Source of the DNA: Candidatus Rokuibacteriota bacterium
GTDB taxonomy: Bacteria > Methylomirabilota > Methylomirabilia > Rokubacteriales > CSP1-6
Assembly: GCA_016193045.1 (NCBI GenBank)
Contig: JACPSW010000021.1
Span: 1 to 49,869 of the forward strand
Length of the DNA: 49,869 nt
Reading direction: 5' to 3'
Made by a program: the position numbers and the translations under genes. Of this stretch, positions 1 to 44,609 are shown one piece after another. The notes under the pieces are model-generated. The model was not told the DNA's origin and searched no databases. It saw only the letters and a program-made list of their open reading frames with translations. Numbering within the stretch: the first letter of the stretch is position 1; every line of letters starts with the position of its first letter.

Positions 1-642
1 ATCGTGGACGAGTTGGCCGACCTCATGATGGCCTCGGCCGGGGAGGTCCAGAACTCACTGGTGCGCCTCGCCCAGGTGGCGCGCGCCGTCGGCATCCACC
101 TGATCATCGCGACCCAGCGTCCTTCGGTGGACGTCATTACCGGGCTCATCAAGGCCAACTTCCCGGCGCGGATCGCCTTCCAGGTGGCCTCCAAGGTGGA
201 CTCGCGCACGATCCTCGACGGCAACGGCGCCGAAACGCTCCTCGGGCGCGGGGACATGCTCTTCGTCCCGCCGGGGGCCTCGCGCCCCGTCCGCGTCCAC
301 GGCTCGTTGGTGGCCGAGGAGGAGACCAAGGCCGTCTGCGATTTTCTACGGAAGCAGGGGGGTGCCGCCTACGAAGAGTTCGCGCCGGCCGGCGAAGAGG
401 CCGCGGGCGAGGCCGCCGCTGTTGCGGAGCGCGACGACCTCTACTGGGACGCCGTTCAGCTCGTGATCTCTCAGCGCCAAGCGTCCATTTCATTCCTCCA
501 GCGGCGCCTCAGGCTCGGCTACCCCAAGGCCGCGCGCTTCATCGACATGATGGAGCAGGACCGGATCATCGGCGCCGGCGACGGGGCCAAACCCCGGGAG
601 GTGCTGGTCGGCCCCGACTTCCTGGCGAAGCGGGCCCGGTGA
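1..642 (+). CDS. ftsK: DNA translocase FtsK, C-terminal part (5' end outside window)
   Basis: This is the 3' part of an FtsK/SpoIIIE translocase, the septum-bound motor that pumps chromosome termini apart at division. The window opens inside the RecA-like motor at the Walker B strand (IVDELADLMM), followed by the conserved ATQRPSVDVITGLIKANFP block. The last ~65 residues (DLYWDAVQLVISQRQASISF onward, with LGYPKAARFIDMME) form the winged-helix gamma domain that reads polar KOPS-type sequences. About 213 residues are visible; the membrane and linker domains lie upstream. The gene ends 3 nt before the next start, so it probably heads an ftsK-lolA-yajQ transcript. Confidence 0.96.
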   Translation: MVDELADLMMASAGEVQNSLVRLAQVARAVGIHLIIATQRPSVDVITGLIKANFPARIAFQVASKVDSRTILDGNGAETLLGRGDMLFVPPGASRPVRVHGSLVAEEETKAVCDFLRKQGGAAYEEFAPAGEEAAGEAAAVAERDDLYWDAVQLVISQRQASISFLQRRLRLGYPKAARFIDMMEQDRIIGAGDGAKPREVLVGPDFLAKRAR

Positions 643-42210: not shown

Positions 42211-42699
42211 TCATCGGACGGCCAATGCCTGGGCGACGATCTTCTCGAAAATCGGATCGAGCTCGGCGGCTACTTTTCCCACCTCGGGCTGGGCATAGGG
42301 CCTGAAGATGGCCGAGGGCTTGATATACTCCAGCGTGGCGGTCCCGTCGGAGTTCTCGTGGAGATAGAGGCGGATCGGCGCCTCGAACCCGGCCTCCCGG
42401 GCGGCGCTGATAATTCGTACGGCAAAATCGTTTCGAAACACCATGAACACCTGGTTTCCGGCGAGCTTCACGCCCCGAGCGGCCGCGCCCCTCTGGGCGT
42501 TCGCGTGGCAGACCAGGCCCATGTGCTGATCGGCGATGGCTTTCTCCAGAGCCTCGGCCACCTTGGCGAACGGAGCCTTTGAGGTTAACGTGATTCGTCC
42601 GTCTTGAGCGATTCCAGGCGCTGCGGGAACGACCAGAGCAGCGGCGGCGAGAACCAGGGAAACAGCCAGTCTGTGCGTGCCCCTCAGATGGAGCTTCAT
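42211..42699 (-). CDS. Secreted DUF302 domain protein
   Basis: This 162-residue exported protein has a signal peptide (1-32, ending PGIAQ) and a DUF302 domain (TSKAPFAKVAEALEKAIADQHMGLVCHANAQRGAAARG ... VFRNDFAVRIISAAREAGFEAPIRLYLHEN). DUF302 proteins are small periplasmic or cytosolic dimers of unknown function, often beside redox or metal genes, as here. GGGGAGG is 5 nt before the ATG. A TTGAAT/ATAAAA-like promoter lies between this gene and the divergent SRPBCC gene. Confidence 0.85.
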   Translation of the reverse strand: MKLHLRGTHRLAVSLVLAAAALVVPAAPGIAQDGRITLTSKAPFAKVAEALEKAIADQHMGLVCHANAQRGAAARGVKLAGNQVFMVFRNDFAVRIISAAREAGFEAPIRLYLHENSDGTATLEYIKPSAIFRPYAQPEVGKVAAELDPIFEKIVAQALAVR

Positions 42700-43352: not shown

Positions 43353-44000
43353 TCATCCGCGGAGCGCCCGCAGGGCGTCGATCGTGCGGGCCGGATCCGG
43401 CCGCCGCGTATAGTCCGGATCGGCATCCGCGGCGCGGATCGTTCCGGTCCGGTCGATCACAAATCGGCCCGGCATGGGGAGCGTCCAGGAGTCGTCTCCG
43501 TTGGCTTGCGTCAGGTCGATCCCGAACTTCAGGTACACCTGCCGCAGATCGTCCGGGAGCGTGTAGACGAGGCCGAACTTCCGGGCCACCTGATTCCCTT
43601 GATCGCGGAGCATCTCGAAGGTGAACGGCTTGTCCGCACTCTCTCGAGGGGTCCTTTGCAGCTGCGGCGAGATCATGACCAGCGTCGCGCCGGCGGCGGT
43701 GATCTCCGGGAGGGCGTTTTGTAGAGCCTCCAGCTCCAGGTTGCAGTAGGGTCACCACTTCCCGCGATAGAAGCTTACGACCAGTGGGCTCTTGGCCAAC
43801 AGGGTCCGAGCGCTCACCGGCTGACCGGCGGCGTTCGGCAGGGTGAAATCGGGGGCTTTGTCGCCGACCTTGAGCGTGGTCGCCAGAAGTCCCGACTGGC
43901 GGATGTGCTCGACCGCCCGATGCATGATCTCGAGCACGTCCTTCGGAGCCTTCGCCTCAAACTGAGCCCTGAGCGCGTCGAGCCGGTCCTGTAGAGCCAT
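43353..44000 (-). CDS. Peroxiredoxin-like selenoprotein with in-frame UGA (Sec83)
   Basis: This 215-residue AhpC/TSA-type peroxiredoxin-like protein would reduce peroxides or act as a thiol oxidoreductase. The first 82 residues include the thioredoxin-fold entry KVGDKAPDFTLPNAAGQPVSA and SFYRGKW; then TGA (43754-43752) stands where relatives have the peroxidatic Cys of FYRGxWCPYCNLEL, and the frame continues PYCNLELEALQNALPEITAAG to the natural end (ADPDYTRRPDP). The redox motif is therefore U83-P-Y-C86. No other stop interrupts the frame. AGGAGGGG precedes the ATG at 44000. A hairpin 13 nt after the UGA fits a bacterial SECIS. If Sec is not inserted, an 82-residue fragment results. Sec machinery lies outside the window. 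Confidence 0.88.
43722..43754 (-). promoter_or_regulatory. UGA codon and candidate bacterial SECIS hairpin
   Basis: On the minus strand UGA (43754-43752) is followed by 13 nt and then stem TGGAGC (43738-43733), loop TGGAG (43732-43728) and GCTCTA (43727-43722), six pairs including one G-U. Bacterial SECIS elements are small stem-loops just 3' of the UGA with a G among the first two loop bases, as here. This is where SelB with Sec-tRNA would bind. Confidence 0.65.
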
Positions 44001-44078: not shown

Positions 44079-44609
44079 CTACTTGACGCAGGGGGTCGGG
44101 GGCATCGTGGGCGCGACCTTCATGGAGGTCCCGTTGCCGAAGACGAAGTCATTGACGCGGGCCACCGAGTGGCAGGCCCGGCAGAAGTCCATCGGCCCGC
44201 CGCTCTTGCCCTCGCCCCAGAGCGTTCCATCGGGGTTGTAGCGCACCCAGTGCCAGCCGTTACCGTCGGGGTCGTATCCCGGCTCGCGCTTCTCCATCAC
44301 GAACACGGCTCCCTGCCCCCCGGGCCGGCACCCCTGGTTCTCGAAGGCCTCCTTGACGATGGCGCTGCCGGGCGGAAAGGGGAACTTTCCCGCGCGGGCC
44401 GCCGGCAACCCGGTGGGGTTGACGTACGTTACCACGAAGGCATTCCCGTGGGTCGCGCTGAAGACCGGCGTGGCGTTCATGCGGGCCCACTGGCGGTAGT
44501 CCTTGAAGGGCCCGGTCTTCAGGGTGGGGTCGCGGGCCGGCTGGCTCGATGCGGTCGCCACCGCCAGCGCTGTCACGAGGGACGCCAGGACCAGACGCCA
44601 CGTCAGCAT
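44079..44609 (-). CDS. Cytochrome P460 family protein
   Basis: This 176-residue exported protein has a signal peptide (1-22), a beta-rich body with YRQWARMNATPVFSATHGNAFVVTYVNP and FPPGSAIVKEAF, and a c-type haem site C143-R-A-C146-H147. This arrangement is the cytochrome P460 / cytochrome c'-beta family, which acts on hydroxylamine or binds NO and CO in the periplasm. It overlaps by 7 nt the upstream beta-propeller gene, so both are made together. Whether the lysine cross-link of true P460 forms cannot be told; a Lys in the GKFPFPP region may be relevant. Confidence 0.87.
   Translation of the reverse strand: MLTWRLVLASLVTALAVATASSQPARDPTLKTGPFKDYRQWARMNATPVFSATHGNAFVVTYVNPTGLPAARAGKFPFPPGSAIVKEAFENQGCRPGGQGAVFVMEKREPGYDPDGNGWHWVRYNPDGTLWGEGKSGGPMDFCRACHSVARVNDFVFGNGTSMKVAPTMPPTPCVK

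Follow-up and report, generated by a model that had tools for sequence, protein, structure and literature searches.

A predicted selenoprotein of the peroxiredoxin fold in a rokubacterial genome, encoded by one gene that appears as two open reading frames

We propose that two apparent open reading frames of a rokubacterial contig are a single gene for a peroxiredoxin-fold selenoprotein and that the in-frame UGA codon which breaks it is read as selenocysteine (Sec). Judging from the comparative evidence we put the probability of this reading at about 0.96, a figure which leaves the substrate of the enzyme aside. In the window, that is, the whole stretch of 49,869 nucleotides that was analysed, minus-strand translation gives a single frame from the start codon to the terminal stop with the TGA of codon 83 as its sole interruption (Table 1). 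Start, TGA and terminal stop all lie where a sequence-only reading of this DNA had placed them. The codon is embedded in SFYRGKW-U-PYCNLELEAL; the UxxC motif claimed by that reading is present as U-P-Y-C and its Cys86 is invariant. A scan of the window with Rfam returned tRNA only and nothing else.

Table 1. Positions of the predicted gene, its elements and neighbours in the window, and of further redoxin-type genes in the same genome
Feature	Position	Strand	Basis
Predicted Prx-like UxxC selenoprotein gene, 215 residues with Sec83	43353-44000	minus	read-through translation, Pfam, orthologues
In-frame TGA, predicted Sec83 codon	43754-43752	minus	UGA in same-phylum orthologues, TGC/TGT in other phyla
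Cys86 codon, UxxC partner residue	43743-43745	minus	invariance and alignment to TxxC relatives
Predicted bSECIS hairpin	43722-43738 (loop 43732-43728)	minus	folding, orthologue conservation, covariation
Shine-Dalgarno-like AGGAGG just 5′ of ATG 44000	44011-44006	minus	sequence
Terminal stop TGA	43355-43353	minus	sequence
Cytochrome P460 gene, immediately upstream neighbour	44079-44609	minus	
DUF302 gene, downstream neighbour	42211-42699	minus	
Other redoxin-type genes with in-frame TGA at or near the active site, same genome	L023 1501-1971 (G000 C56), L027 (C38), L035 (C103), L030 (C149), L033 (C20)		

The automatic listing of open reading frames has two entries for this gene, 43752-44000 (82 aa) and 43353-43676 (107 aa), just as had been expected of automatic annotation. 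That both pieces belong to one gene is supported by a Pfam AhpC-TSA match (PF00578) which crosses the UGA (residues 45-190; 97.2 bits, cut-off 26) and by orthologues which continue through the same codon. The AlphaFold model is a peroxiredoxin fold in one continuous domain with a pLDDT of 94.7 across the site. Alignment and model further indicate that about 40 residues at the N-terminus form a helical extension, and the protein start has no signal peptide-like sequence. One could imagine that translation ends at the UGA and that each half is a product of its own, the second one starting at an internal ATG present at 43676. Yet the active site straddles the break. W82 lies in the first half and Cys86 between the UGA and ATG 43676, and a product starting at this ATG would be without Cys86. 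With position 83 and Cys86 invariant and the modelled domain unbroken, we regard separate synthesis of the halves as extremely improbable.

A single gene read through its UGA is also what the homologues point to. Among 95 genomes of the phylum we collected 25 near-full-length orthologues from 25 other genomes (L117-L141; 54-66% identity, window excluded), and every one of them has exactly one in-frame stop, a TGA at this codon. Both partial same-phylum orthologues (L142, L143) carry TGA there too, as do a deltaproteobacterial homologue (L038, 52%) and three homologues from Binatota (L040-L042). TGC or TGT occupies the codon in homologues from Vampirovibrio, Clostridium, Bacteroidota, Verrucomicrobiota and Planctomycetota. 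The suggested alignment of homologues thus has UGA in close relatives and Cys in distant ones at the exact codon. R79, W82, Sec/Cys83 and Cys86 are invariant across 43 aligned sequences. One homologue on a contig named Candidatus Rokubacteria (L037) is identical in DNA to L118, from a genome of the window's family, and on this ground the window's lineage appears to be rokubacterial (Methylomirabilota). In the tree, Sec and Cys forms separate with three label changes; the branches are long, so that gain of Sec cannot be polarised against its loss. Despite wide divergence, no Cys version was found among the same-phylum orthologues read. For this reason one may speculate that the Prx-like family in Rokubacteria is fixed in its Sec form, Sec being more than an improvement on Cys that could be given up again. 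We consider this rather unlikely; if true, the reaction would require selenium in these bacteria.

As a separate observation, a homologue from Candidatus Geothermincola (L054 3037-3531) has an in-frame TGA within FGRGTW-U-PNWRRYM, where PNW replaces PYC. From its sequence this could possibly be a Sec protein without a resolving Cys.

A nonsense mutation would be another explanation for the broken frame. The UGA would then be a true stop and the second half of a pseudogene would be decaying. Automatic calling does break the gene at the UGA, and both same-genus genomes searched are without an orthologue, so the gene is patchy. Decay of the downstream frame had been named beforehand as an observation that would speak against Sec, and the frame after the UGA does not decay. 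When the window is compared with L117, dN/dS is 0.39 before the UGA and about 0.17 after it, while protein identity is 55% before and 73% after; in nine closer pairs dN/dS is 0.04-0.63 on both sides. These codon comparisons indicate that purifying selection acts on the frame after the UGA and that, in the window comparison, this frame is at least as constrained as the one before it. Together with the recurrence of this UGA in 25 further genomes of the phylum, in Binatota and in a deltaproteobacterium this refutes the pseudogene, which we give hardly any chance; the nucleotide-level constraint on the hairpin described below also speaks against it.

Sec insertion requires its own machinery, which we searched in the whole genome (3.86 Mb, 94% complete; the window is contig C47). 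The tRNA-Sec gene lies at C39:9201-9294 (70.9 bits, over the cut-off; tRNA-SeC(tca) according to ARAGORN), selA at C39:6494-7864 (597 bits) and, adjoining it, selB at C39:4585-6468 (375 bits), all three on one strand of one contig. On C181 we found selD (L015, G000 C181:676-4617; 334 bits), which carries its own in-frame UGA in CAG-U-ASKMGP, the usual catalytic Sec/Cys site. Thus selA, selB, selC and selD, proposed earlier as a check, are all present in the same genome, and with the UGA in selD this genome has no fewer than two independent Sec-type UGAs. The five other redoxin-type genes of Table 1 have the motifs FYRGYW-U-PFC, FRGLY-U-PFC, LRTIW-U-PFC, AWGGI-U-TPEL and WTPG-U-TKEM, and the genome looks selenoprotein-rich. 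A UGA that stands in frame, with the frame conserved past it, might also encode another amino acid by suppression or be reassigned genome-wide. Elsewhere, however, TGA is an ordinary stop, both at the gene's own end and at TGA 640 between ftsK and lolA. The genome moreover has a full Sec system, and species without Sec have Cys at the aligned position. We see next to no room for an amino acid other than Sec.

Downstream of the UGA we find the claimed hairpin with a 6 bp stem (UGGAGC/GCUCUA), the loop UGGAG with G at position 2 and a spacer of 13 nt, the loop beginning at nt 20 after the UGA. It satisfies the loop, stem and spacing rules for bSECIS elements as PMC13188914 quotes them (loop of 3-9 nt with G in the first two positions, stem of 4-16 bp, loop 16-37 nt from the UGA). 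The energy of the folded 40-nt stretch is -7.4 kcal/mol against a threshold of <= -7.5 kcal/mol quoted in the same text. Of 200 dinucleotide shuffles, 53 fold as well as this stretch, and 6.5% of synonymous recodings match its folding. Most hairpins of the same-phylum orthologues have -9.4 kcal/mol or lower, and that of the window is among the weaker ones in this family. Since the window hairpin is not exceptional alone, its weight is carried by the orthologue comparison and the synonymous-codon statistics. The folding check proposed earlier came out in favour by shape and by conservation with covariation, although the window hairpin taken alone does not do better than shuffles.

The window and every same-phylum orthologue examined have a hairpin with a loop starting 20-21 nt after the UGA. 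We scanned 12 Cys homologues with the same rules and found no comparable structure; ten have no hairpin and two have weak ones elsewhere. Ala at Sec+9 is encoded by GCT in 26 of 26 genes (window included) compared with 3.7% of the Ala codons elsewhere in these genes. Leu at Sec+10 is CTA in all eight genes with a base other than C on the opposite side and CTG in the remaining 18, which have C there, with no exceptions, and CTA makes up 1.5% of the Leu codons elsewhere in the same 26 genes. The codon choice opposes the pronounced preference for GC in these genes. Columns 17 and 33 are perfectly associated (Fisher p 6e-7 for the 26 genes, a value that overstates independence as the sequences are related), and at this pair a change from C-G to U-A with both sides altered occurs in 8 of 25 distinct sequences. 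On this comparison we regard the bSECIS hairpin as conserved and supported by covariation. Machinery, UGA/Cys alignment, non-decaying frame and covarying hairpin all favour the earlier inference that Sec is inserted. SelB and Sec-tRNA-Sec would bind the hairpin directly 3′ of the UGA and the ribosome would then put selenocysteine at residue 83, as the comparison supports.

We also considered whether the contig is misbinned; an AFOR gene 94-96% identical in both genus mates argues against this. In synteny with one genus mate (G002), only the nearby AFOR gene matches (88.5% in DNA). The end of contig C256 from a genome of another genus (G080; L144) has 97% DNA identity to window positions 43497-41829 and is cut inside the gene; this stretch shows some recent transfer or cross-binning. 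A scan of the window for other TGA-joined frames gave five, the strongest at TGA 640. We discarded this TGA (640-642, plus strand) as a recoding candidate as it is a plain ftsK/lolA gene junction between two long in-frame open stretches.

The best PDB matches to the model are the peroxiredoxins Bcp4, BcpB and AhpE with a TM-score of about 0.8 (normalised by target). The UGA had been supposed to replace the peroxidatic Cys. The alignment with canonical PxxxTxxC peroxiredoxins corrects this point: Sec83 aligns with the active-site Thr and Cys86 with the peroxidatic Cys, and Sec83 corresponds to the first, Trx/GPx-like Cys of CxxC. The PxxxTxxC/U motif is not kept, as the aligned RGKWUPYC has Arg79 for Pro and Sec83 for Thr, and peroxidase activity is therefore not assured. 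We suggest that Sec83, placed where the active-site helix begins, could act as nucleophile with Cys86 as resolving partner. A peroxide or disulfide would oxidise Sec83, a Se-S bond to Cys86 would form, and thioredoxin or a similar thiol system might re-reduce Sec83.

Which of the two substrates is used is a closer question. Glutathione peroxidases have Sec at the position of the Trx nucleophile. Because Sec83 is placed in the same way, we slightly prefer peroxide reduction, with disulfide oxidoreductase activity close behind in likelihood. That the protein is a thiol:disulfide oxidoreductase and not a peroxidase, to which we give only slightly less than even odds, would agree with UxxC in place of TxxC/TxxU, with Arg79 and Sec83 standing in for Pro and Thr, and with the name of the published class of PF00578 proteins with UxxC, 'Prx-like thiol:disulfide oxidoreductase' (PMC13188914, PMC9312934). 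Against it, the overall fold is nearest to the Bcp/AhpE peroxidases, and the position of Sec is shared with the glutathione peroxidases.

In the literature searched, no paper names this gene for Rokubacteria. PMC13188914 describes a Methylomirabilota MAG for which 63 selenoproteins are predicted (Deng et al. 2026), and a predicted rokubacterial selenoprotein fits a selenoproteome of that size in the same phylum. The gene is a clear example, from an uncultured bacterial lineage, of a selenoprotein that stays hidden when ordinary gene calling splits it, and the unusually clear synonymous-site and covariation evidence for its bSECIS makes it a good test substrate. What is known of Sec decoding and of Prx-like selenoproteins is unchanged; a known family gains a member.

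Among the known systems, the Sec-peroxiredoxins with TxxU (NCBIfam PrxU NF040737) share the fold superfamily and an active-site Sec. In the gene described here, however, Sec takes the place of the Thr and precedes the Sec of TxxU by three residues, and NF040737 yields only 24.5 bits, its cut-off being 270. The AhpC/TSA selenoprotein with UxxS (AhpC-TSA_2 / cd02970; PMC9312934, PMC13188914) likewise has a Prx-like fold with Sec first in the motif, whereas our gene has UxxC, its best Pfam match is PF00578 and AhpC-TSA_2 is not among the matches. Similarity to the SelL-related redox protein (NCBIfam NF040769) is weak, 30.6 bits and far under the cut-off of 120. Prx-like selenoproteins with UxxC have been catalogued since 2005 (PMC1088965, PMC13188914), among them the 'Prx-like protein' in the Sargasso Sea selenoproteome (PMC1088965). 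They form the class Prx-like thiol:disulfide oxidoreductase with PF00578 and UxxC (or UxxU), represented by WP_010940744.1 (Table 1 of PMC13188914). Our gene has PF00578, a Sec in UxxC, Cys homologues elsewhere and a bSECIS after the UGA in common with this class. It differs in its presumed rokubacterial lineage and in its N-terminal extension, and we found no defining difference. By PF00578 and UxxC the predicted protein thus matches the class Prx-like thiol:disulfide oxidoreductase, to which we would assign it.
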